Notes under the pieces: model-generated | The model's database searches: none | The model's input: the letters and a program-made list of their open reading frames with translations, nothing else | What the model was told of the DNA's origin: nothing | Part shown: positions 21,720 to 45,357 of the stretch, in pieces | Layout of the letters: every line of letters begins with the position of its first letter | Position numbering within the stretch: the stretch's first letter is position 1 | Position numbers and translations under genes: made by a program | Origin: Shinella sp. WSJ-2 | GTDB taxonomy: Bacteria; Pseudomonadota; Alphaproteobacteria; Rhizobiales; Rhizobiaceae | Assembly: GCF_003432075.1 (NCBI RefSeq) | Contig: NZ_QWBU01000020.1 | Location: 1 to 52,738, forward strand | DNA length: 52,738 bases | Direction of reading: 5' to 3'

Positions 21720-21946
21720 CATTGCCGCGATACTAGCATCCATCCCCAAGAAAGAAAGAATAATAAACTATACTTTTTCTATCATAATTATATTTGTGTA
21801 ATGTCAAATCCGGATATATCGACAGAAATACATCGAAGTGCGAATCACTCCTAGAAAAACGCCGATAATTTAAGATAAATATTATAATAAATAAGAATAA
21901 TTCAGAATTTACTGAATAATGACGCGGTAAAATAAACACCAGAACG
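21720..21946. other. AT-rich intergenic stretch between napE and nnrR
   Basis: This stretch is far richer in A and T than its surroundings, with runs such as ATAAATATTATAATAAATAA. It carries the nap regulatory box at 21793-21808 and an inverted repeat ATTCAG-N6-CTGAAT at 21900-21917, just past the nnrR stop. An 81-codon minus-strand frame across it is probably chance. Confidence 0.6.
21793..21808. promoter_or_regulatory. Fnr/NnrR-type box upstream of napE
   Basis: TTTG-TGTAATGT-CAAA, the TTG-N8-CAA layout of Crp/Fnr-family sites. On the minus strand the same bases contain TTGACA. It lies 98 bases before the napE start codon. Confidence 0.6.
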
Positions 21947-22642
21947 TCAGTCGCGGCCACCGTCCGCGAGAGCGGCAAGGCCGGCCATATCCCTCACCAG
22001 AAGCTTCTGGCGACCACCCTCGACAAGGCCCTGCGATTCCCAGGCACTTAGGATGCGCGAGACGGTGTGCAGCGTCGTGCCGGTCATTTCGGCAATGTCC
22101 TGCCGGGAGATCGGGAAATCGATACGCACACCCTCGCCTTCCTTGCGGCCGGCCTGCTTGGAGAGCCTGAGCACGGCATGCGCCACGCGGCGCTCCACCT
22201 CCTGCGTCGACATTTCCCGGATGCGGGTGTGCGCCTCTTCCAGTCGCTGGCCGATCGTCTGCATGGCGCTGACGGCAAGGCGGGGGTTCTGTTCGACAAA
22301 ATGCGGCCAGAGATCTGTCGGCCAGCCGAGGATGACGCTTTCCGTCGCGGCCTTCGCGGTGCCCGGATAGTCGGAGCGCTGCAAAGCCTTGGCAAAGCCG
22401 AAGAGATCGCCGGGATGCACGACGCGCACGATGATCTGCTGGCCGTCCTCCGTCACCTGCGTCACCTTCAGGCGACCGTGCAGCAGCAGGAAGAAGCTCG
22501 CCGCCTGCTGGCCCTGCTCGAAGACGGCATCGCCCTGCGGCACGCGACGCGCCGTCGCGTGATTTAGCAGCCTGTCGAGATCCTCGTCGCTCATCCTGTC
22601 GAACAGGGCAAGCGACCGGACGACGGTCCGGTCAATCTTCAC
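21947..22642 (-). CDS. nnrR: NnrR-type Crp/Fnr regulator of denitrification
   Basis: A 231-residue regulator. It has an N-terminal cyclic-nucleotide-type beta barrel (about 15-125), a dimer helix, and a C-terminal helix-turn-helix near 165-205 (FPISRQDIAEMTGTTLHTVSRILSAW). It lacks the N-terminal cysteine cluster of Fnr, which matches NnrR/Nnr proteins that sense NO, probably through haem. The start is GTG at 22642. It is the obvious candidate to bind the TTG-N8-CAA boxes listed in this window. It lies between nap and nirVK. Confidence 0.9.
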   Translation of the reverse strand: MKIDRTVVRSLALFDRMSDEDLDRLLNHATARRVPQGDAVFEQGQQAASFFLLLHGRLKVTQVTEDGQQIIVRVVHPGDLFGFAKALQRSDYPGTAKAATESVILGWPTDLWPHFVEQNPRLAVSAMQTIGQRLEEAHTRIREMSTQEVERRVAHAVLRLSKQAGRKEGEGVRIDFPISRQDIAEMTGTTLHTVSRILSAWESQGLVEGGRQKLLVRDMAGLAALADGGRD

Positions 22643-22658
22643 AATCGTTTCCCTTTGC

Positions 22659-22678
22659 GTGCACCGTCATCGGTGCAC
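22659..22678. repeat. Inverted repeat in the nnrR leader
   Basis: Perfect 8-base arms GTGCACCG and CGGTGCAC are separated by TCAT, 17 bases before the nnrR start and 36 bases past the nirV stop. It does not have the TTG-N8-CAA form and has no T tract. It may be a leader hairpin or an operator for another factor. Confidence 0.5.
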
Positions 22679-22713
22679 CCGGCTTCTATCATGCCTCTCC
22701 GCCGGCAAAAAGT

Positions 22714-23628
22714 TCAGAACGCAAGTCCGCGCGTTTTCAACCTGGCAAGAAGCGGGGCGTACCAGCGTGTATCCTTGACCAGCCGGAAGCCGACATTGTC
22801 AGGCGGAACCCCGACCGCGCAACCGCCGCCCTTCGGGTTGCGTACGAACGAACTCAACGCCGCCCGGTGCTTGCCGCTCGCGACATAGATGCCGCAGGAC
22901 GACACGTCGTTCACGACGGTACCGGCCTTGTCGAGATTAAAGCGCCGGTTGCAGGTCGCCGTCCACTCCCAGATATTGCCGGCGAAATCCGCAAAGCCGT
23001 ATTCGTTCTCGCCGAAACGGCCGAGCGGCTGCGGCACCGGATCACGCGACGCCTTGCGCGCCGCCTCGCGGTTATAGTCGGCGAGCCAGCGATCGGCCGG
23101 ATTGGTGCTGTTGATATCGACGCCGAGCGCATCGTCGGGAAACCGGGACCCCGCGGCAAAAGCAAGATCCTGGTCGGTCGGCAACACCCAGACCTCGCCG
23201 GTGCGCGCACTCAGCCAGCCGGCATAGGCGATGGCATCATCATAGCTGACGCCGGTCGCCGGTGTCGTGGTGGCATCGTGAGGTGCAAAGCCCGGCTCGG
23301 CCGCCGGACAGACGCCGTCGGCCACGCAGCGGCCATAGTCGGCAGCCGTCACCTGATATTTCATGATGGTGAGCGGGCGGCGCATGGTGACGCTCTTCAC
23401 CGGCCCATCGACGGCAAAGCCGTTGCGGAAGAACTCGCCGCTGTCGCGATACTCGAAGCGGCGCGGCGCGATTTCCACCGTCAACGGCTCGTCCAACACG
23501 GGGCCGGTAGCCGCCAATCCGATAAGATCAGCCTTGATCGCGAGCGTGCCGGCAAGTGCCGCCAGCAGCAGGGCGGGAAGCGCAAGTGATTTCAGGGGAA
23601 TGCCGGGTTTCGATGTCAGCGCAGCCAT
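22714..23628 (-). CDS. nirV: NirV, formylglycine-generating-enzyme-like protein
   Basis: A 304-residue protein of the FGE-sulfatase (SUMF1) fold, found beside nirK in rhizobia and related denitrifiers. It has an N-terminal membrane/signal helix (SLALPALLLAALAGTLAI), then the family stretches MKYQVTAADYGRCV, VSYDDAIAYAGWLSARTG, YGFADFAGNIWEWTATC and VPPDNVGFRLVKD. Its role with NirK is not established. The ATG at 23628 starts just before the signal helix. It lies downstream of nirK in the same direction. Confidence 0.92.
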   Translation of the reverse strand: MAALTSKPGIPLKSLALPALLLAALAGTLAIKADLIGLAATGPVLDEPLTVEIAPRRFEYRDSGEFFRNGFAVDGPVKSVTMRRPLTIMKYQVTAADYGRCVADGVCPAAEPGFAPHDATTTPATGVSYDDAIAYAGWLSARTGEVWVLPTDQDLAFAAGSRFPDDALGVDINSTNPADRWLADYNREAARKASRDPVPQPLGRFGENEYGFADFAGNIWEWTATCNRRFNLDKAGTVVNDVSSCGIYVASGKHRAALSSFVRNPKGGGCAVGVPPDNVGFRLVKDTRWYAPLLARLKTRGLAF

Positions 23629-23718
23629 GAAGGCCTCCTTACGCCTCGCCCGGACGATCGTTCGGCGTCCGGGAGTGGGCGCCGATTGGTATGGGAATCG
23701 CAGCCTTGCGATCCGCAA

Positions 23719-23744: not shown

Positions 23745-23759
23745 CTTTGTCGGGTGGTG

Positions 23760-24902
23760 TCAGGCGCCGCTGGGCGGTGTGACCGAGGTCATCAGGTCAT
23801 CGTTCCAGTCGCCGGTGACGGCGAAGTGGCCGGCGGCACCCAGTTCGAAGGCCTCGATGAGGTTGTGGTTCACATAGGCGTAGATGCCGGGCTGCTGGAA
23901 GGTATAGTAGGCCGCGCCCGCCGTGCCGCCCGGAATGAACCAGGTTTCCTGGTCGACATCAGGTGGATTGTGGAACTTGCCGGTCTGCCAGACATAGTCG
24001 CCATGGCCGCCGATCAGGTGCGGGCGGGTGTCGCGGTTGGCCTGCGAATGCACGACCAGCACCCTGTCGCCCACCTTGGCCTTCAGCGCGTTGTCGCCCG
24101 TCAGTGCGCCCACGGCGCCATTGAAGACGATGTGGCTCGGGGTGAGGGTCCGCATGACCGCAAGCGTATCGTCATAGGCGTCGCCGACGCTGGCATATTT
24201 CTTGAAGTTGCCCTCGGCATCACGGGGGACATAAAAGTCCTGCTCGCCGACATAGTAGATGTGGTCATAGGTCAGCTCCTTGCCGTGGCCATCACTCAGG
24301 CCTTCGCGCGGCAGCACCATGATGGCGCCGTTCATGCCCGAGGTGACGTGCCACGGCACCATTCCGGGAGGTGCGCAGTGGTAGACGAAGACGCCTGCCT
24401 TGGTGGCCTTGAAGCGCAGCACGGTGCGTTCGCCGGGATTGACCACCGTCAGCGCGCCGCCGCCGAGAGCGCCGGTCGCCGCATGGAAGTCGATATTGTG
24501 CTGCAGCTCGTTGGTCTCGGGGTTGATCAGCGTCAGCTCGACATAGTCGTTCTGGTGCACCACCATCAGCGGGCCGGGAACCGAGCCGTTGAAGGTCATG
24601 GCGTGCACTTCCGTGCCCTTGTCGTCGAGGATCATCTTCTTTTCCTCGATCGTCATGGTGAACTCATAGACCTTCGGGCCGCCTTCGGCCTTCTGGGTGT
24701 GGGCGTGCACGAAGGGCGGCTTGACGAGCTCGACCTTCACGCGCTCCAGCTTGGCGATGTCGGCCGCGGTCGCCGCGGCGTTTGTTTCGACCGCGCCGCC
24801 TTCGGCGCGGGCCATCGACGCCGCAATGATCGGCGTCAGGACGCCGGCAAACGCGGCACCGCCGAGGATCGTGCGGCGGGTCATCTGAAACTGCTCGGTC
24901 AT
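23760..24902 (-). CDS. nirK: NirK copper-containing nitrite reductase
   Basis: A 380-residue periplasmic enzyme reducing nitrite to NO, made of two cupredoxin domains. A Tat signal is present ([14 protein letters not shown]). Type 1 copper ligands are H135, C176, H185 and M190. Type 2 ligands are H140, H175 and H346, with catalytic D138 (HNIDFH) and a conserved second-domain histidine in [15 protein letters not shown] precedes the ATG. It is divergent from nnrS, with an NnrR-type box at 25047-25062 between them, and is followed by nirV. Confidence 0.98.
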
Positions 24903-25046
24903 TGAATTTCTCCTTTTCGAAAGGACGGAGCGATGTGTCTATCGCCAGGTCCTCTCTGTTCTAGGAGCATTCGCGCCAACCTCTTTGTGGTGGGACAAAC
25001 AGGCCCTTCCGGCCGCTGCGGCATTTTGGCAGATGCTGATTTGCTC

Positions 25047-25062
25047 TTTGCCATCTCGCAAA
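25047..25062. promoter_or_regulatory. NnrR-type box between nirK and nnrS
   Basis: TTTG-CCATCTCG-CAAA, with the symmetry extending outward (CTCTTTGC to the left, GCAAAGA to the right). It is 145 bases from the nirK start and 59 from the nnrS start, so it can serve both directions. Confidence 0.75.
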
Positions 25063-25120: not shown

Positions 25121-26338
25121 ATGTCTGCAAATCCCCCCGTCAGTCCATCCGTCGGCCGCCCCGTGCCGCGCGGTCTTTCCCGCACCGGACCAGTGCTCTT
25201 CTCCTATGGGTTCCGGCCATTCTTTCTCGGCGGCGCGCTCTGGGCCATCGCGGCCATGGGTCTGTGGATCGCCGCGATAACAGGCCACATCACGATTGCC
25301 GAGACCTATGGCGCGCCCAACTGGCACGCGCACGAAATGCTGTTCGGCTTCGCCTCCGCCGTACTCGCAGGCTTCCTGCTGACGGCCGTGCCGAACTGGA
25401 CCGGGCGCCTGCCGGTTTCCGGCTGGCCGCTGGCAGGCCTCTTTGCGCTCTGGTGCGCCGGCCGCATCGCACTTCTCACCTCCGATGCGATCGGCGTGGC
25501 CGTGGCCGCCACCATCGATGCGCTCTTCCTGCCCGTCCTGCTCGCCATCTGCACGCGCGAGGTGGTGGCCGGGCGCAAGTGGAAGGATCTGAAGGTTCTG
25601 GCCGGGCTCGCCGCCCTGTCGCTCGCCAATGCGCTCTATCACATGGCAGCCATTCATGGCGGGCACGACCCTATGGCGATCCGCCTCGCCGTCGCCGCCT
25701 ATGTCGTGCTGGTCATGATCGTCGGCGGGCGCATCATTCCAAGCTTTACGCGCAACTGGCTCAACAAGTTCGGCCGCACCGATTTTCCGGTGCCCTACAA
25801 CACCTATGACATGGTCGCGATCCTCGCAGGTGCCGGTGCATTCGGCCTCTGGGCCATTCTCCCCGAGCACCCGGCAACCGCTGCTGCGGGCGCGGCCGCT
25901 GGCGCCCTCCATTGCATCCGCCTGCACCGCTGGCGCGGCTGGACGGTGGCACAAGACCGGATCCTCGTCATCCTGCACATCGCCTATACCTTCATCCCGC
26001 TCGGCCTTTTGGCTATCAGCCTCAGCGCATTGGGATATCTCGAAGAACGCTCGGTGCTGCATCTGCTCTCGGTCGGCGCCATCGCCTGCATGATGCTGGC
26101 GGTCATGACGCGGGCGAGCCTTGGCCATACCGGCCGCGCCCTGGTCGCCTCGAAGGTCACGGTGGCCTCCTATGCCGCCCTCATCCTCTGCGCGCTGGTG
26201 CGCCCACTCGCGGAAATCCTGCCGGACCTCAGCCCCATCCTCTATGCTGCTTCGGGCCTGCTCTGGATCACCGCCTTCGGCCTCTACTGCCTGGAATATG
26301 CGCCCATGCTCGCGCGAAAACGCCGCGCACCGCTTTGA
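25121..26338 (+). CDS. nnrS: NnrS haem- and copper-containing membrane protein
   Basis: A 405-residue protein with about twelve transmembrane helices. The NnrS signature includes FSYGFRPFFLGGALWA at the start and WHAHEMLFGFASAVLAGFLLTAVPNW with conserved histidines. NnrS relieves nitrosative stress in denitrifiers, probably by limiting dinitrosyl-iron complexes. The ATG at 25121 follows AAAGGAAA. It is divergent from nirK and shares its NnrR box. Confidence 0.95.
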   Translation: MSANPPVSPSVGRPVPRGLSRTGPVLFSYGFRPFFLGGALWAIAAMGLWIAAITGHITIAETYGAPNWHAHEMLFGFASAVLAGFLLTAVPNWTGRLPVSGWPLAGLFALWCAGRIALLTSDAIGVAVAATIDALFLPVLLAICTREVVAGRKWKDLKVLAGLAALSLANALYHMAAIHGGHDPMAIRLAVAAYVVLVMIVGGRIIPSFTRNWLNKFGRTDFPVPYNTYDMVAILAGAGAFGLWAILPEHPATAAAGAAAGALHCIRLHRWRGWTVAQDRILVILHIAYTFIPLGLLAISLSALGYLEERSVLHLLSVGAIACMMLAVMTRASLGHTGRALVASKVTVASYAALILCALVRPLAEILPDLSPILYAASGLLWITAFGLYCLEYAPMLARKRRAPL

Positions 26339-26344
26339 AATGCG

Positions 26345-26374: not shown

Positions 26375-26377
26375 CGT

Positions 26378-26682: not shown

Positions 26683-27201
26683 TCAAGCCTCCCCGATCCG
26701 CACGAGGATGCGGTAGGCCGATCCCGTCTCATCGAAATTGCCGGCCCATTGGTGGCCGCGCTTGGTCAGCTCCGGGAACAAGAACAGCGGTTCGCGCGCC
26801 AGCACGGCGAAGAGCACCTCGCCCGGCTCCAGCGCTTCGGCAGCCGCAAGAATACGCACCATCGGCTCCGGCGGATCGAGATCGGTGAGGTCGAGATGTT
26901 CGGACGGATCCGGCCAGGTTTCGGGGCGATCGGCGTCGACAGAGGTCTCGACGGGCGCCGCGTCCTTCTTCGGCGTGAACAGCACCTCCCAGTCGCCGCC
27001 GTCGATCTCGCGGGCTTCATGATCGAAGCCACGCCCTTCCATCACACGAAACAGCGGCTGCGGACGAAACGTCGCAAGCAGCGTCAACGCCTGTCCGGGC
27101 TGCAGGTCTTGAACAGCCTGCATGATCGCCTGGAACGGCTCGCCGCCGCTGCGCAGGATCGGCCGCACGTCGAGCACCTTCGGTGTAATCTCGGACATCA
27201 T
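26683..27201 (-). CDS. Protein with two DUF2249 domains
   Basis: A 172-residue cytoplasmic protein with two DUF2249 modules. The first (about 8-72) contains LDVRPILRSGGEPFQAIMQAVQ; the second (about 100-170) contains LDLTDLDPPEPMVRILAAAEAL. DUF2249 is a TusA/SirA-like fold found in denitrification clusters, with no settled biochemical role. The start is one of two adjacent ATGs after GGAG. It overlaps the membrane-protein gene upstream by four bases. Confidence 0.85.
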   Translation of the reverse strand: MMSEITPKVLDVRPILRSGGEPFQAIMQAVQDLQPGQALTLLATFRPQPLFRVMEGRGFDHEAREIDGGDWEVLFTPKKDAAPVETSVDADRPETWPDPSEHLDLTDLDPPEPMVRILAAAEALEPGEVLFAVLAREPLFLFPELTKRGHQWAGNFDETGSAYRILVRIGEA

Positions 27202-28556
27202 TTATCTCCTTGGAAAGCGGATAGAGGCAGAAAGAGGCGCGGCCGCACCATGCCGGCAGGCGCACGTAGCGCAGCCGGCACGATGGAAAGGCGGCGCGCC
27301 CGGATGAATTCGCGGATCAGACAAAGCGTCGACAAAAGCTGCCCTGCGACGGCCATCCGGAAAAAGCCGGTCGTTCCGGCAGCAAGGGAGAGCACCGCGA
27401 TGCCGACGGCACCGTAATAGAGACGGAACAGGATCAACGCGTGGCGCTCGTCGACGAGGTCCTGCACCCGCGGCACGGGCGCACGGCCCAGGACGGGGCC
27501 ATAGGCCTCCAGCCAGGTGAGAAAGGCGACGATCTTGTAGAGCTGGGCAAGGCCGAGCCCGGTGAGCCAACCGAAAACGAACAGGTAGACGACCGCCGCC
27601 ACCATATTGCCGGACCTGAGGGAGGGGACGTTGAGAAGGAGGATAGAGAGGGCACACAAGCCAAGCGCCGCGAAACTCGCGCGAATATTCAGTTCCGCCT
27701 GCTTTCGCTTCCGCCCACGATAGATGTGCAGGACATCCGCGCCGTAAAGCATGACGGCCATCAGCGTGAGCAGCAGCGCGGCGGCGAAAAGCAGCGCGGC
27801 ACCGAAAATGCCGGACAGCACGAAGACCACCGCCACGACAACAAGCCCGACAGCCAAGCTCGCACCCCACCAGGCGGCGCGGCTGGTCGAACGTTCGACC
27901 TCCGGCGCCAGCAGAAACATCGAGAACAGCCGGTAGCTGACACCGACCGCCGTCGCGCTCAACCAGCCCCCGAGGCCAAGGGCGGCATGCAGCGCGACGC
28001 CATCGGCAACGAGCCGGTCGAGCAATGGACTTTCCGTGAAACCGGACAGGGTGGCCGTGAACGCAGAACCGATCAGGGCCGCGCCGACAAGCGCGGCAAG
28101 ACCGGTGGCGACGAAGCGGGCGGGTAGCGGCAGAGGCCGCGCAGAAAGAAGCGTGACGGCGAGAATGCCGGCAAACAGGCCGAAACCGGCCAGAAGCATA
28201 ACGCCGCCGATGGGCAGCAGGGCAAGCGGCAGGTCCAATGCCGCAGACAGCGCAACGAACCCGCCCAGAAGGCAGCCCAGCCCGCCGAGCAGCAGCAACA
28301 GGGCCGGCATGGCAAAACGCCCGCCGATGACAGGCCGGGCGATGAGCACCGGCACGAATTGCAAGAGCGCCCCGGCCATCAGCAGGCTCAGCCAGCCGAT
28401 GGCGATGAGATGGACGACGACAAGCGTTTCCGGCGCGCTGATATCGGCAAAGGGATAGCCGTAGCCGGCCACCATCAGCCCCTGCCCCGCCACGAGCATG
28501 AGGCAGGCGGCGGCGAAGTAGGACATGGTCCAGCGGGAGAGCGTTGCGCCCGGCAT
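27198..28556 (-). CDS. Multi-pass membrane protein, NnrS/CcoN-like, uncharacterised
   Basis: A 452-residue protein with about twelve transmembrane helices. Two histidine helices stand out: VVVHLIAIGWLSLLMAGALL near residue 47 and ALHAALGLGGWLSATAVGVS near residue 190. The first resembles the haem-ligating helix of CcoN/NorB and NnrS proteins, so the protein may bind haem. It lacks an obvious set of copper-B histidines. It lies between DUF2249 genes and downstream of an NnrR-type box. The function is unknown; a role in NO handling is inferred from context only. Confidence 0.7.
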   Translation of the reverse strand: MPGATLSRWTMSYFAAACLMLVAGQGLMVAGYGYPFADISAPETLVVVHLIAIGWLSLLMAGALLQFVPVLIARPVIGGRFAMPALLLLLGGLGCLLGGFVALSAALDLPLALLPIGGVMLLAGFGLFAGILAVTLLSARPLPLPARFVATGLAALVGAALIGSAFTATLSGFTESPLLDRLVADGVALHAALGLGGWLSATAVGVSYRLFSMFLLAPEVERSTSRAAWWGASLAVGLVVVAVVFVLSGIFGAALLFAAALLLTLMAVMLYGADVLHIYRGRKRKQAELNIRASFAALGLCALSILLLNVPSLRSGNMVAAVVYLFVFGWLTGLGLAQLYKIVAFLTWLEAYGPVLGRAPVPRVQDLVDERHALILFRLYYGAVGIAVLSLAAGTTGFFRMAVAGQLLSTLCLIREFIRARRLSIVPAALRAPAGMVRPRLFLPLSAFQGDK

Positions 28557-28581
28557 GTCGGTTTGCCTCGCCGCAACCTGT

Positions 28582-28863
28582 TCAGTGTTCGGAACCGCAG
28601 CAGCAGTCGCAGCCGCCGCCGTCTTCCAGCCGGTCGATCTCGACGCGCCAGACTTCCGGACCCTGTTCGAGATAATCCCAGCCGAACTGGCCGGGGAAAT
28701 TGGTCTCGAGCTGGTAGTGCAAAGGTCGCGGATCGTGATCGCTGGTGATCAGCATGGATTTGCCGGGCATCAACGCGCCAAGCATGCCGAAAATGCGCGG
28801 ATGGCGTTCGCGCGGCGGAATGGTGCGCACGTCGATGAGGGGCTTGTCCAGGGTCTCAGACAT
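28582..28863 (-). CDS. DUF2249 protein with cysteine-rich tail
   Basis: A 93-residue protein. DUF2249 fills residues 8-80 (LIDVRTIPPRERHPRIFGML, then FGWDYLEQGPEVWRVEI). The last residues read GGGCDCCCGSEH: four cysteines and a histidine that could bind iron, copper or another metal. It is the first gene of the operon and starts 102 bases from an NnrR-type box. The tail is not a general part of the DUF2249 fold. The function is unknown. Confidence 0.85.
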   Translation of the reverse strand: MSETLDKPLIDVRTIPPRERHPRIFGMLGALMPGKSMLITSDHDPRPLHYQLETNFPGQFGWDYLEQGPEVWRVEIDRLEDGGGCDCCCGSEH

Positions 28864-28964: not shown

Positions 28965-28980
28965 TTTGACCCTGCGCAAA
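28965..28980. promoter_or_regulatory. NnrR-type box, DUF2249/hemN promoter, site 1
   Basis: TTTG-ACCCTGCG-CAAA lies between two divergent genes, 102 bases before the DUF2249 start and 109 before hemN. It matches the TTTG-N8-CAAA pattern exactly. Confidence 0.7.
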
Positions 28981-29014
28981 CAATCGACGATTTTCAGGCC
29001 TCTTGCCGCGCTGC

Positions 29015-29028
29015 TTGGCATTTCGCAA
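29015..29028. promoter_or_regulatory. NnrR-type box, DUF2249/hemN promoter, site 2
   Basis: TTG-GCATTTCG-CAA, 61 bases before the hemN start. Its centre is 49 bases from that of site 1, close to five helical turns, so two dimers could sit on the same face of the DNA. Confidence 0.6.
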
Positions 29029-29088
29029 AGAAGACTGCCCCGGCCGCTCCTACCCTTTCCGCAATCGACACACGAAAAGGAACGCGCC

Positions 29089-30441
29089 ATGCAACAGGCC
29101 CTGATCGAGAAATACGGAGAGGCGCGGCTGCCGCGCTATACGAGCTATCCGACCGCGCCCGCCTTCGCTCCCGTCGTCGGCGCCGGCACCTATGGCGACT
29201 GGCTGTCTAACATCAAGCCGGGCACCGAGGCCTCGCTCTACCTGCACATCCCCTTCTGTCGGTCCATGTGCTGGTATTGCGGTTGCCACACCACCATCAC
29301 CCAGAAGGACGCGCCGATCCTCGACTATCTCGACATGCTGCGACAGGAGATCGGCCTCGTCTCCGACCGGGTGGAAAACCGCATCAAGATGAAACACATC
29401 CATTTCGGCGGCGGCACGCCGACGATCATGCAGCCGGAGGAGTTCCGCGATCTCATCGGCCTGCTGCGCGCCCGCTTCGGCCTCGTTGCCGGCGCGGAGA
29501 TCGCGGTGGAGATCGACCCGCGCACGCTGACGGCAGAGATGGCGGCAGCGCTCGGCGAGGCGGGCGTCACCCGCGCGAGCCTCGGCGTGCAGAGTTTCGA
29601 TCCCGTCGTGCAGAAGGCGATCAACCGCATACAGAGCGAGGCGCAGACCGCCGAGGCCGTGACCCGGCTGCGCGCGGCCGGTGTCGGTGGCATCAATTTC
29701 GACCTCATCTACGGCCTGCCGCACCAGACGGTGCAATCCTGCATCGACACGGCGAAGGCGGCGGTCGCCATGCGGCCGGAGCGTTTCGCCGTCTTTGGCT
29801 ATGCCCACATCCCCTCCTTCAAGAAGCACCAGCGGCTGATCGACGAACGCGCGCTGCCCGATGCCGCCGCACGCGCCGCGCAGGCGGAGGCGATTGCCGA
29901 AACACTCGTTGCCGCCGGCTATGTTCGCATCGGTCTCGATCACTATGCGCTCCCGAGCGATGATCTCGCGATCGCCGCAAAACGCGGCCGGCTGCGGCGC
30001 AACTTCCAGGGCTATACGACGGATACTTGCGAAACGCTGATCGGCTTCGGCGCCTCGTCCATCGGCCGCACGCCGGATGGTTATGTCCAGAACGAGGTGC
30101 CGCCCGGCCTCTATGCCCAGCGCATCGCCTCGGGTCGGTTGGCCACCGTCAAGGGATACCGGCTGACTGCCGAAGACCGGCTGCGCGCCGAAATCATCGA
30201 ACGGCTGATGTGCAATTTCCGCGCTGACATCACCACCATCGCCGCCCGTCACGGTTTCGACGCGGCCCCCCTTTTGGACGGCAATGCGCGGCTGGCAGCG
30301 CTCGCTGATGACGGCGCCGTCGATATAAGCGGCGGCACGGTCACGGTGCGGCAGGATCATCGTTTCATCATCCGCGCCGTCGCTGCCGCCTTCGACGCCT
30401 ATATCGACCAGTCGGCCCGCACGCACAGCAAGGCTGCCTGA
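29089..30441 (+). CDS. hemN: HemN oxygen-independent coproporphyrinogen III oxidase
   Basis: A 450-residue radical SAM enzyme that makes protoporphyrinogen IX for haem without O2. The [4Fe-4S] motif is CRSMCWYCGC, with C57, C61 and C64 as cluster ligands and C66 as the extra conserved Cys. GGGTP follows (FGGGTPTIM), and the HemN C-terminal domain is present. The ATG at 29089 is preferred over a longer frame that would run through both regulatory boxes. It supplies haem for the cytochromes of this island. Confidence 0.95.
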   Translation: MQQALIEKYGEARLPRYTSYPTAPAFAPVVGAGTYGDWLSNIKPGTEASLYLHIPFCRSMCWYCGCHTTITQKDAPILDYLDMLRQEIGLVSDRVENRIKMKHIHFGGGTPTIMQPEEFRDLIGLLRARFGLVAGAEIAVEIDPRTLTAEMAAALGEAGVTRASLGVQSFDPVVQKAINRIQSEAQTAEAVTRLRAAGVGGINFDLIYGLPHQTVQSCIDTAKAAVAMRPERFAVFGYAHIPSFKKHQRLIDERALPDAAARAAQAEAIAETLVAAGYVRIGLDHYALPSDDLAIAAKRGRLRRNFQGYTTDTCETLIGFGASSIGRTPDGYVQNEVPPGLYAQRIASGRLATVKGYRLTAEDRLRAEIIERLMCNFRADITTIAARHGFDAAPLLDGNARLAALADDGAVDISGGTVTVRQDHRFIIRAVAAAFDAYIDQSARTHSKAA

Positions 30442-32398: not shown

Positions 32399-32407
32399 GG
32401 TCAGACC

Positions 32408-33211: not shown

Positions 33212-33275
33212 TGCGGTCTCCAAATCTGATAGAGGAAAGGTGCCGGCCCCGTGGGATGACGGGGCCGGCCAGCGC

Positions 33276-34622: not shown

Positions 34623-34633
34623 GTCGTCTCTCC

Positions 34634-35210: not shown

Positions 35211-35226
35211 TTTGCGCGCAGGCAAA
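35211..35226. promoter_or_regulatory. NnrR-type box upstream of norC
   Basis: TTTG-CGCGCAGG-CAAA, with perfect TTTGC/GCAAA arms. It lies in the norF-norC gap, 125 bases before norC, and suggests a second promoter inside the nor cluster. Confidence 0.75.
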
Positions 35227-36088: not shown

Positions 36089-36120
36089 GCCCCTTTCTAA
36101 CCGGGCGAGAGGAGACCTTC

Positions 36121-36136
36121 TTTGCGCCGGCACAAA
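36121..36136. promoter_or_regulatory. NnrR-type box between norE and a small plus-strand gene
   Basis: TTTG-CGCCGGCA-CAAA, 33 bases from the norE start and 52 bases from the start of the gene at 36188. With the six bases that follow (GACCAG) it is almost identical to the box at 39300. Confidence 0.75.
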
Positions 36137-36822: not shown

Positions 36823-37755
36823 TCATCCGCCCGCCGTGGTCGCGCTACGCCCCCGCGCCACCCAGGCCGCTCCCTCCTGCTGGTGCAGGAAGCCGTTCGA
36901 AAAGCGTATGCCTGGATAAGCCTTCTCCAGCTCTCGAACAGCCTCTTTCCCTTCGATCCGCCCATCGAGCGTCGCGCGGTAGAGAGCCGCTACCCTAACC
37001 ATGTCGCAATCCTGTGGAGAAAGCCTGACGCGGGTGAGGCCCGCCTCCATCAACACCGCGAGATCATCCAGGAGCACGACGCAACTGTTCGACATAGTCT
37101 GGACGCCGTTCAGGACGAGGAACGACTGTCGGTCGAGCGTGCGCAGCGGCAGGCCGTCGGGATCCTCACCGCAGATGAACTGGCAATTGTCCTTGGTCAG
37201 CCCCTTCGAGCGGGCATGGGCGCAGCGCGCGGAGATGGCGAGCGGCATGCGGCCGAAGGCGAAGAGTTCGAAGGCAAAGTCCGGCATGGCCTGCAGCATC
37301 TGCCGGATGGAGGTAGCGGGAAGCTCCGGCGGGAGACAGACCACATCCGCACCGCGCGCGGCAAGCGTGCGCGCCGTCGCGGCATTGTAGACATTGACCA
37401 ATGGGCCGATGGAATGCGGCCTCCCTTTGAGAAGCCCGAGGGCGGATAGGTCGTTTGCTTCCACTTTGTGGTGCGCGTCGCGAATGAGGTCGCGCACATG
37501 TCGGCTTTCGCGTTCCAGCGTCACCATGGCGAGCGTCGAGAGCGTCACCTGCTTGCCGGCGGCTTCCAGACGCTCGATAACGTCGGCAATATGCGGCTCG
37601 CTGAAATGCTGGCGCTTGGAGCAGACAGTCTCGCCGAGCGTCACGTGATCAATGTCCGCCTCATCGGCGATGCGGAAATAGAAATCCCGCCATTTCGGAC
37701 CGTCCCAGAGGTAGTAGATCGGCCCGAGGCTTAGCGCTGTCCGCCTGGTTTTCAT
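36823..37755 (-). CDS. ubiV: UbiV, O2-independent ubiquinone hydroxylation protein
   Basis: A 310-residue U32-type protein. With UbiU it hydroxylates ubiquinone intermediates without O2. The Fe-S cysteines are visible as ETVCSKRQHF and, further on, ARCAHARSKGLTKDNCQFIC. Its size and the neighbouring ubiU and ubiT distinguish it from true U32 peptidases. It starts eleven bases after ubiU and is the last gene of ubiTUV. Confidence 0.93.
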   Translation of the reverse strand: MKTRRTALSLGPIYYLWDGPKWRDFYFRIADEADIDHVTLGETVCSKRQHFSEPHIADVIERLEAAGKQVTLSTLAMVTLERESRHVRDLIRDAHHKVEANDLSALGLLKGRPHSIGPLVNVYNAATARTLAARGADVVCLPPELPATSIRQMLQAMPDFAFELFAFGRMPLAISARCAHARSKGLTKDNCQFICGEDPDGLPLRTLDRQSFLVLNGVQTMSNSCVVLLDDLAVLMEAGLTRVRLSPQDCDMVRVAALYRATLDGRIEGKEAVRELEKAYPGIRFSNGFLHQQEGAAWVARGRSATTAGG

Positions 37756-37766
37756 CGCTTCGTCTC

Positions 37767-38744
37767 CTATCGCCAGCGTTTGTCATAGGCGCCGGAGGTG
37801 GTGCGCTGCCCTTCGCTCATCGCCCGCAGCCTGGAAACGAGCGCAGTACGCTCCGTCGGGCTCGCGCGGAGCGCCTTCTTCAACGAGGACACCACCTCGG
37901 CGACATAGGCCTTGCCGCGCTGCCGCCCCTCGATCTTCAAGGCACACACGCCGGCCGCCTTCAGCGCATCGATCTCGTCGATCACATCAAGCGAAACAGG
38001 ATCTTCGAAGGCGTAGCCCTCCGTGCCGCCGACATCGAAGCGGCCCTTGCAGAGCGTCGGATAGCCGGAGGCCTCGCCGGGGCCGAAGCGGTTGATCGTG
38101 TAGGCGCCGAGTTCGGAAACGAGTGCGCCGGCCTCCTCCCGGTAACGGACATGGCTGGCCGGCGAGCAGACGCCGTTCATGTTGGGTGACTTGCCGGTCG
38201 CATAGGACGACAGCGAACACCGCCCCTCTGCCATGACGCAGAGGCCGCCGAAGGCAAAAACCTCCACCTCGCAATCGATCTGCCGCGTCAGCCGGGCGAT
38301 ATCCTGCACCGTCAGAACGCGCGGCAAGACCACGCGCTTGGCACCGAAGGCCTCGACGAGGAAGCGGATCGCATCGGGGTTGGAGGCCGACGCCTGGACA
38401 GAGACATGCAGTCGCTGCTCCGGATATCGTTCCGCTACATAGGCCATCAGCCCGAAATCGGCGATGATCAGGGCATCGGCCCCGATCGTCACCGCATCGT
38501 CGGCGGCGGAATACCAGAGCGCTTCGTCGCCCGCACGCATGAAGGTGTTGAGCGCCACGAAGGTCTGCACGCCCTTGCGGCGCGCGAGCGCGATGGACTG
38601 GCGCAGTTCCTCGCGGCTGAAGTTCAGGCCGGGGAAGTTGCGGGCGTTGGTCTCATCGCGAAAGCCGCAGTATATGGCGTCGGCGCCGGCCTCTATCGCC
38701 TCGCGAAAGGCGGCGGGGGTGCCGGCAGGGCAGATCAGTTCCAT
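37767..38744 (-). CDS. ubiU: UbiU, O2-independent ubiquinone hydroxylation protein
   Basis: A 325-residue U32-family protein. The N-terminus MELICPAGTPAAFREAIEAG and the cysteine block GLCVMAEGRCSLSSY...NMNGVCS fit UbiU, whose four cysteines hold a [4Fe-4S] cluster; a further Cys lies in YPTLCKGRFD. It forms a heterodimer with UbiV that uses prephenate as hydroxyl donor in the species studied. It overlaps ubiT by ten bases. Confidence 0.94.
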   Translation of the reverse strand: MELICPAGTPAAFREAIEAGADAIYCGFRDETNARNFPGLNFSREELRQSIALARRKGVQTFVALNTFMRAGDEALWYSAADDAVTIGADALIIADFGLMAYVAERYPEQRLHVSVQASASNPDAIRFLVEAFGAKRVVLPRVLTVQDIARLTRQIDCEVEVFAFGGLCVMAEGRCSLSSYATGKSPNMNGVCSPASHVRYREEAGALVSELGAYTINRFGPGEASGYPTLCKGRFDVGGTEGYAFEDPVSLDVIDEIDALKAAGVCALKIEGRQRGKAYVAEVVSSLKKALRASPTERTALVSRLRAMSEGQRTTSGAYDKRWR

Positions 38745-39241
38745 GCCGCGCCCCTCCCCCCGAGTGCCCGCGCCCGGATGTGACGTGCAGCCCCGCTCAC
38801 CAGTGGCGAAAACGGCCCTGCCAGCGCGCCGAGTTCGCGCGGCAGATCGATGGCGCTGTCATCAAGCGCATTGCGCAGCGCCAGCATGGCCTCCATGTCG
38901 CCGGTAACCGAGAGATCGCGCGAGAAGAACAGCGCATCGGCATCGCAACGCCCCTCCAGCAGGCCCAGCAGCAATGCGAGAGGCCCATCGATTCGCGCAT
39001 CCGCCAAAGGCGGCTCGCCACGAAAGACGGACAGCATGCGGGTCGCCGGCACGATGCGGAAATGCAAGGAAAGATCGGAGGGCGAGAAGCAGTAGCGGGT
39101 CTGCCTGTAGTCGCCGAGACGGTCGAAGAGATCCGGATGCCCCTTCAGCACGCCGGTAAAAATCGTGCGCGCGACGCGCTCCACGAACCAGAGCGGTGCG
39201 ATTTCGGCAGATTTTGCAAGAAGCGGAGAGAGATAGGGCAT
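38735..39241 (-). CDS. ubiT: UbiT, SCP2-domain ubiquinone accessory factor
   Basis: A 168-residue protein with an SCP2 lipid-binding domain (about 40-145; YRQTRYCFSPSDLSLHFRIV, DARIDGPLALLLGLLEG and FFSRDLSVTGDMEAML are typical of UbiT/YhbT). It is thought to hold hydrophobic ubiquinone intermediates for anaerobic synthesis. It is the first gene of ubiTUV and lies divergent from ubiD across a shared NnrR-type box. Confidence 0.9.
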   Translation of the reverse strand: MPYLSPLLAKSAEIAPLWFVERVARTIFTGVLKGHPDLFDRLGDYRQTRYCFSPSDLSLHFRIVPATRMLSVFRGEPPLADARIDGPLALLLGLLEGRCDADALFFSRDLSVTGDMEAMLALRNALDDSAIDLPRELGALAGPFSPLVSGAARHIRARALGGRGAAWN

Positions 39242-39299: not shown

Positions 39300-39315
39300 T
39301 TTGCGCCAGCACAAA
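39300..39315. promoter_or_regulatory. NnrR-type box between ubiT and ubiD
   Basis: TTTG-CGCCAGCA-CAAA, 58 bases from the ubiT start and 33 bases from the ubiD start. Together with the next six bases it differs at one position from the norE box at 36121. Confidence 0.72.
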
Positions 39316-39348: not shown

Positions 39349-40860
39349 ATGAAACCCGAAAGCCCTATTCCCCGCCGCCATGACACCCTTCAGGATTTCG
39401 TCGCTCTGCTGGAGCAGCGGGGGCGACTGAAGCGCATCCACGAGCCTGTCTCGCTGGTGCACGAGATCACCGAAATCCATCGCCGCGTGCTGGCACAGGA
39501 AGGCCCGGCGCTGCTCTTCGAACAACCGGTTGATGCCGCCGGCACTGTCCAGCCCATTCCACTCCTTGCCAATCTTTTCGGCACCCGAGAGCGGATCGAA
39601 TGGGGTTTTGGCCTGGAGGCCGGCGGCCTACCGCAGCTTGCATCGTTTCTGGCAGACCTGCGCGATCCCAAGCCGCCGCGATCGATGCGGGACGCCTGGC
39701 AGAAGCTGCCGCATCTCAAAGCCGCGCTTTCGATGAACCCGCGCACCATCACCCGCCCGCCCTGCCAGCACACGATCTGGCAGGGGGAGGCCATCGACCT
39801 CGATCGTCTGCCGATCCAGACCTGTTGGCCCGGCGAGCCGGCACCACTGGTCAGCTGGCCCCTGGTGATCACACAGGCGCCCTACGACCCAGACGACACC
39901 AATGTCGGCATCTATCGCATGCAGAAGCTCGGCAAGAACCGGTTGATCCTGCGCTGGCTGGCGCATCGCGGTGGCGCGCGCCATCACCGGCTCTGGCAGG
40001 CACATGGCGAAAACATGCCGGTCGCGATCGTCATTGGCGCCGATCCCGCCACGATCCTCTCGGCGGTCATGCCCCTACCGGACGGCATGAGCGAACTGGC
40101 CTTTGCCGGCGTGCTCAGCGGCCGGCGGCAGCAGACGGCGCAGTGTGTCACCGTACCGCTGCCCATTCCGGCCGGCGCTGAAATCGTGCTGGAAGGCACG
40201 GTCTCCACGCGGGAAATGGCGGACGAAGGTCCCTATGGCGATCATACCGGCTACTACAATTCCGTCGAGGCCTTCCCGGTGCTGACGCTGTCGGCGATCA
40301 CCCTGCGGAAAAACCCGCTCTATCTCTCGACCTATACCGGACGCCCGCCTGACGAACCCTCGCGGCTCGGCGAGGCGATGAACGACCTCTTCGTGCAGCT
40401 GGTGAAACGGCAGTTTCCCGAAATCCGCGATCTCTGGCTGCCGCCCGAGGCCTGCTCCTATCGCGCCATGGTCGTTTCGATCGACAAGCGCTATCCGGGC
40501 CAGGCACGGCGCGTGATGATGGGGCTGTGGTCCATGTTGCCGCAGTTCAACTATACCAAGCTCGTCATCGCCGTGGATGGCGATATCGATGTCAAAAGCT
40601 GGCCGGATGTCATCTGGGCACTCTCCACGCGCTTCGACGCAAGCCGCGACCTTGTCGTCATCGAGAACACGCCGATCGACTATCTCGACTTCGCCTCGCC
40701 CAAATCCGGCCTCGGCGGCAAGCTCGGTCTCGATGCCACCAACAAGATCGGCGCGGAAACCGAGCGCGAATGGGGCCGCCCCCTCGCCATGTCGCCAGAG
40801 GTTACCGCACGGGTCGACTGCCTCTGGCAGACGCTCGGCCTCGGAGAGGTGACTGCGTGA
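39349..40860 (+). CDS. ubiD: UbiD-family prenylated-FMN decarboxylase
   Basis: A 503-residue UbiD enzyme that removes the carboxyl group of 4-hydroxy-3-polyprenylbenzoate in ubiquinone synthesis. The family block STREMADEGPYGDHTGYYN carries the catalytic Glu residues, and IYRMQKLGKNRLILRWLAHRGG is the prFMN/metal-binding region. The ATG at 39349 puts the start just downstream of the box. It overlaps ubiX by four bases (GTGA), and UbiX makes its prenylated flavin. A paralogue acting on another aromatic acid is possible, but the context favours ubiquinone. Confidence 0.93.
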   Translation: MKPESPIPRRHDTLQDFVALLEQRGRLKRIHEPVSLVHEITEIHRRVLAQEGPALLFEQPVDAAGTVQPIPLLANLFGTRERIEWGFGLEAGGLPQLASFLADLRDPKPPRSMRDAWQKLPHLKAALSMNPRTITRPPCQHTIWQGEAIDLDRLPIQTCWPGEPAPLVSWPLVITQAPYDPDDTNVGIYRMQKLGKNRLILRWLAHRGGARHHRLWQAHGENMPVAIVIGADPATILSAVMPLPDGMSELAFAGVLSGRRQQTAQCVTVPLPIPAGAEIVLEGTVSTREMADEGPYGDHTGYYNSVEAFPVLTLSAITLRKNPLYLSTYTGRPPDEPSRLGEAMNDLFVQLVKRQFPEIRDLWLPPEACSYRAMVVSIDKRYPGQARRVMMGLWSMLPQFNYTKLVIAVDGDIDVKSWPDVIWALSTRFDASRDLVVIENTPIDYLDFASPKSGLGGKLGLDATNKIGAETEREWGRPLAMSPEVTARVDCLWQTLGLGEVTA

Positions 40861-41429
40861 CGACGCAACGCGTCATCGTCGGTATCTCCGGCGCATCGGG
40901 CGCGGCACTCGGCGTTCGCATCGTCGAAAGGCTCGCAACACTGCCCGGTATTGCAACCCATCTGGTTGTCTCGGACGCAGCACGGCGCACGCTTGCGCTG
41001 GAATGCGGCCCCGATACGCTCGATCGGCTTATCGCTCTTGCTCAGCACCACCCGATCGACGATATCGGCGCCTCCCTTGCCAGTGGCTCCTTTCCGGTCC
41101 GCGGCATGGTCATCGCGCCCTGCTCCATGCAAACACTCTCTTCGATCGCGACCGGGCGAACCGAGACGCTGCTCACGCGCGCAGCGGATGTGCAATTGAA
41201 GGAGCGCCGCCGCCTCGTGCTGCTTGCGCGGGAAACGCCCCTGCATCTCGGACACCTGCGCAGCATGGTCGCGGCGACCGAGATGGGGGCCATCATCATG
41301 CCACCCGTCCCGGCCTTCTATCACTGCCCAAGCTCCGTCGCCGAGATCATCGACCACCTCGCCGCCCGCGCCATCGACCTGCTCGCGCTTCCTCACCCTC
41401 TCCTGGCAAAGAAATGGGAGGGCACCTGA
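40857..41429 (+). CDS. ubiX: UbiX flavin prenyltransferase
   Basis: A 190-residue flavoprotein that attaches a dimethylallyl group to FMN to make the UbiD cofactor. The Rossmann-like start IVGISGASGAALGVR is characteristic, with MVIAPCSMQTLSSIATG and RRLVLLARETPLHLGHLRSM further on. The start is GTG at 40857, overlapping the ubiD stop, so translation is coupled. The frame is open far upstream, but that part shadows ubiD. Confidence 0.95.
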   Translation: MTTQRVIVGISGASGAALGVRIVERLATLPGIATHLVVSDAARRTLALECGPDTLDRLIALAQHHPIDDIGASLASGSFPVRGMVIAPCSMQTLSSIATGRTETLLTRAADVQLKERRRLVLLARETPLHLGHLRSMVAATEMGAIIMPPVPAFYHCPSSVAEIIDHLAARAIDLLALPHPLLAKKWEGT

Positions 41430-41686: not shown

Positions 41687-42124
41687 TTACAGGCCCATTT
41701 TAGCGATGGCCGCATCCAAGCGTTCGCGGGCTTTCTTCGGCAGCTTGCCGGTCTTGACGGCGTCGAGGTTAGCCGGTGTATCGCCGACGACGACAAGACC
41801 CACCATGCCCATGCCGACATGCGGCGTGCACTTCACGCCATAGGCGCCGGGCTTGTCGAAAGTGACCTTATAGGTCTCGTTCATCTTGCTCTTGAAGGCC
41901 TCCGCGCCTTCGGGGATGAAGTCCTTGATCGTCTCGACGTTGTGGCCCTTGTCGGTGGGTATGAAGGTAACCGTGTCGCCGGGGGCGACCTTCACGAAGG
42001 CGGGCTCGAACACCATGGCGCCCTCGGCACCCTTGTTGAGCATGTGTACTTCAAAATCTGCCGCACCGGCGGGAAGGGCAAGCGCGAAAAGGACCGCTGC
42101 TGCGCCGACGATGCTCTTTACCAT
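41687..42124 (-). CDS. paz: Pseudoazurin, blue copper electron carrier
   Basis: A 145-residue periplasmic cupredoxin. The signal peptide ends at about ALPAGAA (15-21). Type 1 copper ligands are H61 (DKGHNVE), C99, H102 and M107 ([10 protein letters not shown]). Pseudoazurin donates electrons to NirK and NosZ. The ATG at 42124 is preferred over an in-frame GTG at 42133. An Fnr-type box lies 79 bases upstream. Confidence 0.95.
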
Positions 42125-42202: not shown

Positions 42203-42218
42203 TTTGACGTTGATCAAA
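42203..42218. promoter_or_regulatory. Fnr-type box upstream of pseudoazurin
   Basis: TTTG-ACGTTGAT-CAAA. The inner TTGAC-N4-ATCAA is closer to the classic Fnr consensus than the other boxes in the window, so this gene may answer to Fnr/FixK as well as, or instead of, NnrR. Confidence 0.72.
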
Positions 42219-42219
42219 C

Positions 42220-44117: not shown

Positions 44118-44171
44118 GACAATCTCCGAAGGACAGATGGACCGGCGCCCGAAAGCGCCGCCTTTGCGGGT

Positions 44172-44702
44172 TCAGTGGCCGCTTACGGCCTCAAGCAGCT
44201 TCACGCCGGGGGCGGGAAGCTCGAGATCGTCCTCGGACTGGCCTGCGGCCGGGATTTCGATCCAGCGCTCAGCCACACCATCCGGGCACTCCTGCACTAC
44301 GGGGAAGTGCAGCGTTTCACCCGCCTTCAGATCCTTCGTCAGATAGACCCGCAGCACGAATTCGTCATATTCGTCGTCGCCGAGATTTCCGCCGCTCCAG
44401 ACGATTTCCTTCACGCCTTCGCTGGTCGGCGTGCCGTAGTAGTCGTAGGATTTAGCATAGGCGCCCTTGATCTTTTCAAGCGTCCAGCCGGCCTTCGGCT
44501 GCGGCTTCACCGCAATCACGCCTTCGGGGATCTGCACGCGCACCACATTGGTCGGCTTGCCCTCGCAGCCGTGCGGCACCTGGAAGATCGCGCGATAGGT
44601 CGAGCCGACCGGCGCCTCCTTCAACTGCAACGAAACATGGGCAAGGGCGGCGCTGGAACCGAGCGCAAGGGCGGCAACGGTTGCAAGTGTTCTTTTCAGC
44701 AT
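44172..44702 (-). CDS. YcnI-like DUF1775 copper-binding protein
   Basis: A 176-residue secreted protein. The signal peptide ends at SSAALA, directly before H22 (AHVSLQLKEAPVGSTY). The new N-terminal His and the conserved Trp residues (AGWTLEKI, EIVWSGG) form the Cu(II) site in YcnI proteins. It lacks an obvious C-terminal membrane anchor. It sits 54 bases before copCD, a pairing known from ycn-type copper import operons. Confidence 0.9.
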   Translation of the reverse strand: MLKRTLATVAALALGSSAALAHVSLQLKEAPVGSTYRAIFQVPHGCEGKPTNVVRVQIPEGVIAVKPQPKAGWTLEKIKGAYAKSYDYYGTPTSEGVKEIVWSGGNLGDDEYDEFVLRVYLTKDLKAGETLHFPVVQECPDGVAERWIEIPAAGQSEDDLELPAPGVKLLEAVSGH

Positions 44703-44872
44703 TGTCAGTCTCCAAGAGAGCCGGTCATCCCTGCCGGCAAGGTATGATGGAAAAAGGAAAGGAGATAGGAGCGCGAGGGCATGCAGCAGGCGGTCCGCTC
44801 ATGCAGCGATCAGGGCAGGGAAAACCTGCACAACATGCTCGCACGATGGCCTTGCCGGCACTGGCCCGGCGA

Positions 44873-45265
44873 TCAGGCGAGTGTCGGGGGACCGCGCGGA
44901 TGTCCGGGCAAAGCCTCATGCGCCGAAGGCGCGTGGTCGTCATACCCGTCGAAAATCCGCTGCGAGGGTTGTGCAAGCGGATTGAACAGGATGAGGACAG
45001 GACGATACGGCGGAACGAGGCCTGCCGCCATACCGCAGGCCAGCGTGCAGCAATCGGGAGCGAGCGAGCGCTCCTTGCCCGGCGTCGATGCCGGTTTCTG
45101 CTCGTCGAGATGGGTGATGCAGAGCGGATTACCATAGGCATCCACCGCCGAACTGCCGGCCGTGGCAGCTTGGGCCAAGGGGCTCAGAAGAACCTGCAAC
45201 GCCATCAGCACGGCGGCGGCGAAAGCCACCCAGCCGTTCCGGCGCTGCTGCATGTATATCGTCAT
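44873..45265 (-). CDS. DUF2946 family small exported protein
   Basis: A 130-residue protein with a signal or anchor helix (WVAFAAAVLMALQVLLSPLAQA) and a conserved DCCTLACGMAAG motif with three cysteines, as in DUF2946 proteins found beside copper genes. It may bind copper. I chose the ATG at 45265 over 45280. It heads the DUF2946/ycnI-like/copCD group and faces ric across an NnrR-type box. Confidence 0.75.
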   Translation of the reverse strand: MTIYMQQRRNGWVAFAAAVLMALQVLLSPLAQAATAGSSAVDAYGNPLCITHLDEQKPASTPGKERSLAPDCCTLACGMAAGLVPPYRPVLILFNPLAQPSQRIFDGYDDHAPSAHEALPGHPRGPPTLA

Positions 45266-45341
45266 CAAAACCTCTCGCACCGAGGCTTACCAAGCGCGCC
45301 GCGTGACGAAAAGGCTCCCGGCTCGCCGAATTGTCGCACTC

Positions 45342-45357
45342 TTTGCGGTGCAGCAAG
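45342..45357. promoter_or_regulatory. NnrR-type box between DUF2946 and ric
   Basis: TTTG-CGGTGCAG-CAAG, with an intact TTG-N8-CAA core. It lies 76 bases from the DUF2946 start and 109 from the ric start, so it could drive both the copper module and ric. Confidence 0.6.

Follow-up and report, generated by a model that had tools for sequence, protein, structure and literature searches.

The 52,738-bp contig of Shinella sp. WSJ-2 analysed here (the window, one of the 29 contigs of a 5.14-Mb genome) carries an island of denitrification genes whose promoters contain ten boxes of the form TTG-N8-CAA. These boxes are real: they are enriched in the window, most of them are conserved at orthologous promoters of relatives, and they comprise two classes of half-site. 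It is likely, as judged from sequence comparisons, that most of the boxed promoters are switched on by NnrR, a nitric oxide (NO)-responsive activator of the CRP/FNR family encoded within the island, and that FNR probably reads the box of a putative pseudoazurin gene (paz) and perhaps that of the nap genes. Binding by NnrR, NO as the signal, and the response of the genes are what we infer from these patterns. The island is a well-supported further case of a regulon most of which is already known; its less expected members are ubiTUV and ubiDX, genes for ubiquinone synthesis without oxygen.

Nine of the ten boxes had been listed by a sequence-only reading of the window, and all nine were found at the places given and fit TTG-N8-CAA, seven of them with full TTTG/CAAA arms as had been said (the listed positions mark the first T of TTTG, with the exception of 29015, the first T of TTG). 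The list was incomplete by the full-arm, NnrR-type box TTTGTGGTGGGACAAA (24984..24999) in the gap between nirK and nnrS, which also holds the NnrR-type box TTTGCCATCTCGCAAA (25047..25062). Two boxes likewise occupy the gap between a DUF2249 gene (DUF2249 is presumably the same family as COG4309) and hemN, namely TTTGACCCTGCGCAAA (28965..28980), of NnrR type with one TTGA half, and the weaker NnrR-type CTTGGCATTTCGCAAA (29014..29029), about 74 bp before hemN. Further NnrR-type boxes stand upstream of norCBQD on the reverse strand (TTTGCGCGCAGGCAAA, 35211..35226), between norE (reverse) and the orf51-hemerythrin genes (forward; TTTGCGCCGGCACAAA, 36121..36136), between ubiTUV (reverse) and ubiDX (forward; TTTGCGCCAGCACAAA, 39300..39315, without a TTGA half), and, in weaker form, between a DUF2946-like gene (reverse) and ric/ytfE (forward; TTTGCGGTGCAGCAAG, 45342..45357). 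The remaining two are TTTGTGTAATGTCAAA (21793..21808), about 95 bp upstream of napE (reverse) and perhaps of FNR class, and TTTGACGTTGATCAAA (42203..42218), upstream of paz (reverse), with the FNR-type halves TTGAC and TTGAT. The placement of all nine listed sites in intergenic gaps holds, resting partly on the starts chosen for norE and the DUF2249 gene, and six of them do lie in five divergent gaps; at 36188, which had been given as the partner of norE, begins a conserved open reading frame (ORF) of 51 amino acids (aa) that precedes the hemerythrin gene. The regulator gene nnrR is indeed inside the island, as a CRP/FNR gene at 21947..22642 (reverse strand; PF13545, PF00027) with the recognition helix TTLHTVSR.

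The full-arm form TTTG-N8-CAAA occurs 38 times in the genome, and eight of these sites fall in the window, which makes up 1% of the genome and where 0.39 would be expected (binomial P ~5e-9). A count inside versus between genes, proposed with the original list, placed all eight in gaps and none in genes. Full arms with spacers of 2-7 and 9-15 were found 0 or 1 times each in the window, the same pattern reversed had 30 matches genome-wide and one in the window, and first-order resampling of each gap gave a mean of 0.137 and a maximum of 4 full-arm sites in 2000 runs. In the matrix scan that had also been proposed, here carried out with each site left out in turn, eight of the ten sites outscored every other position of the window and those at 29014 and 45342 did not. 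The short form TTG-N8-CAA was rejected as evidence by itself because 7 of its 19 matches in the window fall within genes. Location in a gap was likewise rejected as sufficient, since beyond the window 25 of 30 full-arm sites lie outside called genes as well. A near-perfect site at a DUF2794 gene outside the island (C28:110127) reached a log-odds of 19.3 on the NnrR matrix described below, above every island box; at its position no box was found in any of the 29 relatives read (56 have the gene), and a short-form match elsewhere within 300 bp was present in three of the 29. Conservation and not score was used as the criterion.

Conservation was assessed in two samples of relatives. The first consisted of 20 regions from the genomes of 14 relatives, searched with the island proteins, with a box defined as TTG-N8-CAA within 260 bp; two ubiT pieces (G075 and G057) end before the box, which was seen in a separate reading. 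The second consisted of 80 loci around ubiT, the best 80 of 465 confirmed candidates, with a box search over 300 bp. In the first sample, a box was present before nirK in 5/5 cases, nnrS in 5/6, DUF2249 in 7/7, hemN, norC and norE in 6/6 each, the hemerythrin gene in 7/7, ubiD in 11/11, and paz in 6/6. The second gave 7/7 for nirK, 2/3 for nnrS, 7/7 for DUF2249, 8/10 for hemN, 29/30 for norC, 32/32 for norE, 26/27 for the hemerythrin gene, 75/77 for ubiD, 5/5 for paz, and 5/12 for ric. Inner operon genes lacked boxes in the first sample (norB 0/6, the gene for a 452-aa protein 0/5), as did norB in the second (0/28), and nnrR itself had a box in 1/9 and 1/12 cases. At most orthologous promoters the arms and the position of the box are kept and the central bases vary. 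Even paired boxes recur: the two in the nirK/nnrS gap are 63 bp apart in G075, G057, and G011, and those in the DUF2249/hemN gap are 48-49 bp apart in the same three genomes and in G106 and G071, with another spacing in G045 and G103.

Matches to the CRP-type helix family number 26 in the genome, and 11 exceed the cut-off. Of the nine proteins that were read, NnrR aside, two appear capable of recognising TTG-N8-CAA: an FNR, which has a cysteine cluster at its N-terminus and the helix LTIETVSR (C1:300183), and a DNR-like protein with the helix LAPEALSR (C2:51577). The NnrR helix has His where both of these have Glu, and the same His is found in 50 of the 53 homologues read, the other three, all of the class sample, having Phe or Tyr. 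This helix position has been tied to a base of the half-site (Rodionov 2005, PMC1274295; this and the other papers are cited from the portions of their text that were available), and NnrR has been noted to differ at it and to have a motif less like that of FNR (Dufour 2010, PMC2908626). A half-site classifier was built from 66 norC/norE boxes, which are NnrR targets according to the literature, versus 24 ubiT boxes of genomes lacking NnrR; it placed 59/66 and 22/24 of left-out boxes correctly. The fourth base of the half-site, which is C (0.70), T (0.16), or A (0.08) in the norC/norE set and A (0.87) in the NnrR-less ubiT set, tells NnrR-like boxes (TTGC/TTGT) and FNR-like boxes (TTGA) apart. 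On this classifier, nine of the ten window sites score as NnrR (consensus ctTTGcg-N4-cgCAAag) over FNR, with log-odds of 7.4 for nap, 12.5 and 16.2 for nirK/nnrS, 6.5 and 7.5 for DUF2249/hemN, 13.7 for norC, 15.3 for norE, 16.1 for ubiT/ubiD, and 6.6 for ric; the paz box does not. Eight boxes (the two of nirK/nnrS, the two of DUF2249/hemN, and those of norC, norE/orf51, ubiT/ubiD, and ric) look NnrR-like, ric being the weakest. The claim that all listed boxes form one NnrR regulon is thus supported for most of them and not for the FNR-like paz box, with nap ambiguous: the observation behind it is sound and slightly understated, and its interpretation is too wide for one or two boxes.

In the proposed mechanism, NnrR would respond to NO and bind the ctTTGcg-N4-cgCAAag boxes as a dimer, thereby activating nirK-nirV-nnrR, nnrS, the DUF2249 operon, hemN, norCBQD, norE, orf51-hemerythrin, ubiTUV, ubiDX and, less surely, ric. 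Since nnrR comes third, after nirK and nirV, a promoter activated by NnrR would supply NnrR itself. The boxes of paz and perhaps nap would be read by the FNR of the genome, alone or together with NnrR.

The ubiTUV/ubiDX promoter was followed more widely. A ubiT gene is present in 25 of 121 genomes of the family and 41 of 385 of the class (the Shinella genome is in both), which makes 65 distinct genomes; a second weak match in G040 (L073) was left out of the box count. TTG-N8-CAA occurs within 350 bp upstream of ubiT in 42 of the 65, spacers of 5-7 and 9-14 giving 2 to 6 and a spacer of 4 giving 13. Outside the family, 21 of the 40 class genomes bear the box, with two TTGA halves in 20 of these 21. 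In the second relatives sample, 79 ubiT loci were read, nearly all of them Rhizobiales by title (L277 was omitted, its match being at the locus edge); where a genome had several boxes the most palindromic one was retained. A box is present in all 79, in most cases 60-90 bp upstream of ubiT, with 2 to 9 for other spacers. No TTGA half is present in 26 of these boxes, one in 44, and two in nine, so that an NnrR-type half occurs in 70 of 79. The sample includes five Devosia; a non-FNR ubiT box is therefore not confined to the Rhizobiaceae.

The class of the ubiT box was compared with the presence of NnrR, absence being scored as no match at E <= 1e-30 (for the class sample, at most seven candidates were scored per genome). 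NnrR was found in 39/40 and 36/39 of the genomes of second-sample ubiT loci, with L257 left out, and for the joint counts six loci (L206, L224, L230, L242, L247, L261) were omitted as apparent duplicates of records already counted. A box without any TTGA half occurs in 31 of 86 genomes with NnrR versus none of 28 without (Fisher 4e-5, kinship ignored), and a box with two TTGA halves in 13 of 86 versus 22 of 28 (Fisher 1e-9, kinship ignored). For the presence of any non-A half the association with NnrR has P = 0.047 in the family sample alone; in class genomes outside the family there is none, neither of the two NnrR-bearing genomes there having a non-A half. A simple rule by which presence of NnrR means an NnrR box was rejected, as eight Brucella-group loci with NnrR (L224, L233, L236, L243, L244, L247, L263, L264) have two TTGAT halves, and L280 also combines NnrR with two TTGA halves. 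Because of these Brucella-group boxes and of NnrR-less genomes that keep an NnrR-like half (see below), the shift is best described as one that follows lineages, with exceptions. Both regulators may be able to read the composite boxes. We tentatively suggest, as a possibility that we hold to be somewhat doubtful, that in the Rhizobiaceae and some neighbouring families this promoter has moved from FNR (oxygen) to NnrR (NO) control by a change of the fourth base from A to C or T, with the composites as in-between forms; ubiquinone would then be made without oxygen only once nitrite is reduced to NO.

Several observations weigh against the reading of the island boxes by NnrR. In the leave-one-out scan the site at 29014 is equalled or exceeded by five other window positions and that at 45342 by three. 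The controls among relatives are not clean, with a short-form match before the gene for the 452-aa protein in two of three second-sample loci and full arms with a spacer of 12 at 8 of 30 norC loci. None of the five ric boxes among the 12 second-sample loci is full-arm, and in the first sample one of two genomes has a box (G057 and not G117). At hemN of R. sphaeroides, FnrL has the site TTGCGcaggATCAA by chromatin immunoprecipitation on arrays (ChIP-chip; Dufour 2010, PMC2908626), so that binding by FNR is compatible with one TTGCG half. Four genomes without NnrR at the threshold given above, three of Martelella and one of Ciceribacter (L212, L248, L252, L256), and the NnrR-less G081 keep TTTGCGCTRGCTCAAA before ubiT, a box with one NnrR-like half; with G214 they are the NnrR-less genomes that keep one non-A half. 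The five NnrR-less genomes with TTTGCGCTRGCTCAAA all have FNR and DNR-like proteins, and the helix TTLHTVSR was not seen in the loci read of these genomes (one of 22 loci, L283, was read out of frame). To these points are added the FNR-like paz box of the window (log-odds -4.6, TTGA on both sides) and the boxes at the nap place of relatives, which are mostly FNR-like.

In 7 of 11 relatives both halves of the paz box are TTGA (4/6 in the first sample and 3/5 in the second: G057, G011, G045, G050, L208, L272, L275); the box is composite in G103, L211, and L246, and lacks a TTGA half in G106. Membership of paz in the NnrR regulon is not supported by the type of its half-sites, here or in most relatives. 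The box is probably under FNR or joint FNR/NnrR control. Counting against an FNR reading, NO is reported to induce azu1 of E. meliloti, and NnrR to take part in this (PMC4064527). The nap box is NnrR-like here, yet boxes no more than 5 bp from the same place carry two TTGA halves in G011 and G057. G071 has one two-TTGA box and one mixed box that are 18-33 bp off, and G075 and several others of 13 relatives have no box; any such box within 700 bp was found in 8 of 14 genomes with napF. With less weight than for paz, the nap box is perhaps under FNR or joint control as well. Elsewhere in the genome, a second gene that resembles pseudoazurin by eye (C24:297079, locus L129) has the full-arm FNR-like box TTTGACCAAAGTCAAA, and two full-arm boxes (C22:181386 and 181492, locus L125), one NnrR-like and one FNR-like, stand upstream of a gene that by eye resembles cytochrome oxidase subunit II.

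Of the alternatives to control by NnrR, one that keeps an appreciable, though clearly minor, probability is that the boxes are read mainly by an oxygen regulator, FNR (or FixK), and that NnrR has only a part. The Glu-helix FNR of the genome adjoins a hemN-like gene and the FNR box TTGATTTTGATCAA lies in their shared gap, the boxes of paz and near nap are mostly FNR-like in relatives, ChIP-chip places FnrL of R. sphaeroides at the ubiT/ubiD promoter, with the site TTGATgtagGTCAA (Dufour 2010, PMC2908626), and the NnrR-less Martelella and Ciceribacter genomes retain their ubiT box. However, TTGA halves are few in the norC, norE, and ric boxes of relatives, with fourth-base A fractions of 0.02, 0.13, and 0, respectively, in the second sample, the ubiT/ubiD box of the window has none, and ubiT boxes without TTGA are confined to genomes with NnrR in the comparison above, which ignores kinship. 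It is rather improbable that the third CRP/FNR protein, the DNR-like one, reads part of the boxes. This protein is present here and in all five examined NnrR-less genomes that keep the ubiT box, and RSP0465/RSP0466 (U32, lipid carrier) of R. sphaeroides were put in the DNR regulon computationally (Dufour 2010, PMC2908626), but its Glu predicts TTGA halves according to the rule of Rodionov 2005 (PMC1274295) and its neighbour genes look unrelated by eye. It is highly improbable that the boxes are AT-rich palindromes which promoters contain by chance, since the fact that full-arm sites outside the island mostly avoid genes too and that the DUF2794 site is unmatched at its position in 29/29 relatives is outweighed by the spacing-specific enrichment and the conservation at orthologous promoters, which already contradict chance for most sites, though those at 45342 and 21793 may be of this kind.

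Regulation of denitrification by NnrR as proposed here agrees with known systems. The NnrR regulon of Alphaproteobacteria has the consensus ctTTGcgnnnncgCAAag and the targets nir, nor, nnrS, and hemN, and COG4309 is probably co-transcribed with nor genes (Rodionov 2005, PMC1274295); the available main text of that study does not mention ubi or quinone genes, a U32 peptidase, or azu/pseudoazurin. In an nnrR mutant of B. diazoefficiens, nirK, norE, norC, hemN1, hemN2, and nosR are lowered, as are bll7628 ("sterol-binding protein", -10.3 fold) and bll7627 ("U32 family peptidase", -15 fold), which have the box TTGTTCCCGCTCAA (PMC6710368). We read this SCP2/U32 pair as corresponding to ubiT/ubiU; in the available text it is listed by expression and box and not called ubiquinone genes. 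In R. sphaeroides, the promoter of RSP0466-4 and RSP0467-8 (lipid carrier, U32/ubiD) also has a CRP/FNR box, but this is of FNR type (TTGATgtagGTCAA), whereas in the window the box is of NnrR type in both halves and NnrR, not DNR, is the candidate to read it. A computational analysis placed RSP0465/0466 under the NO regulator DNR, with the remark that they may have come under FnrL in R. sphaeroides (Dufour 2010, PMC2908626), so that a change of regulator at ubi genes has already been suggested in print. In E. coli an anaerobic CRP/FNR activator, Fnr, similarly turns on UbiTUV, although this is an oxygen regulator with two separate sites between the divergent ubiUV and ubiT (PMC10470549). The available text on H. 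denitrificans describes its genes for anaerobic ubiquinone and for NO reductase as forming a cluster and being regulated together. No paper joining NnrR and UbiU was found in a literature search conducted largely without subscription papers.

The boxes had also been said to tie known denitrification genes to uncharacterised ones. This applies to the DUF2249 operon and the 51-aa peptide, which now stand behind conserved NnrR-type boxes; for hemN and COG4309 the link was already in print. The DUF2249 operon (26683..28863, reverse strand) comprises a DUF2249 gene, the gene for the 452-aa protein (27198-28556), and a DUF2249-TusA gene. No Pfam family (E up to 0.05) or NCBIfam family (E up to 0.001) matched the 452-aa protein. 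The structure predicted for it (pLDDT 89) resembles NO reductase and subunit I of cbb3 oxidase (RdNOR 4xyd, E 1.2e-7, TM ~0.6), which suggests a heme-copper oxidase fold. The heme-copper oxidase/NO reductase fold has six metal ligands, and invariant His residues are fewer in the 452-aa protein, only His 49 and 190 being invariant in 26 aligned sequences. The peptide of orf51 (36188-36343, forward strand), between norE and the hemerythrin gene, is conserved and membrane-like, and was matched in 37 of 84 loci searched.

Genes were called with a purpose-written codon-bias script and families assigned from Pfam/NCBIfam profiles; for the count inside and between genes, one gene at the contig start and four elsewhere were added by hand and norE was shortened. 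The island begins with napE-F-D-A-B-C (reverse strand), followed by nnrR, a gene with an FGE-sulfatase domain (22714..23628, reverse; PF03781), which we take to be nirV, nirK (23760..24902, reverse; TIGR02376 above cut-off), and nnrS (25193..26338, forward; PF05940), whose start is uncertain. Next come a DUF59-type gene and the DUF2249 operon (reverse), the latter with the start set at 28863 (the frame is open to TTG at 29028), and hemN (29089..30441, forward; PF04055, PF06969). The norCBQD operon (30500..35086, reverse) begins with norC (34634-35086), norC and norD being identified by domain and place. It is followed by a COX4-like gene (35242-35517, reverse; PF03626), which lies behind norE (35528..36100, reverse; COX3 family, PF00510), cut by hand to 36100 from a frame open to 36406, and by orf51 and the hemerythrin gene (36353-36814, forward; PF01814). 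The ubiTUV genes (36823..39241, reverse) begin with ubiT (38735-39241); UbiU (NF047963) and UbiT (NF047962) are above cut-off, and ubiV was recognized from PF01136 and its place. Beyond ubiD and ubiX (39349..41429, forward) lies a cupredoxin gene (41687..42124, reverse; PF00127) that we take to encode pseudoazurin. CopCD, DUF1775, and DUF2946-like genes (reverse), the last with a weak match under its cut-off, precede ric/ytfE for iron-sulfur repair (45467..46144, forward; TIGR03652 above cut-off). The names napE, F, D, B, C, nirV, and nosX, L, Y, F, D, Z are assumed from position or recall alone, and those of norC, norD, norE, ubiV, and pseudoazurin in part. The nosX, L, Y, F, D, Z genes (reverse) complete the island, and the contig ends 128 bp before nosZ.

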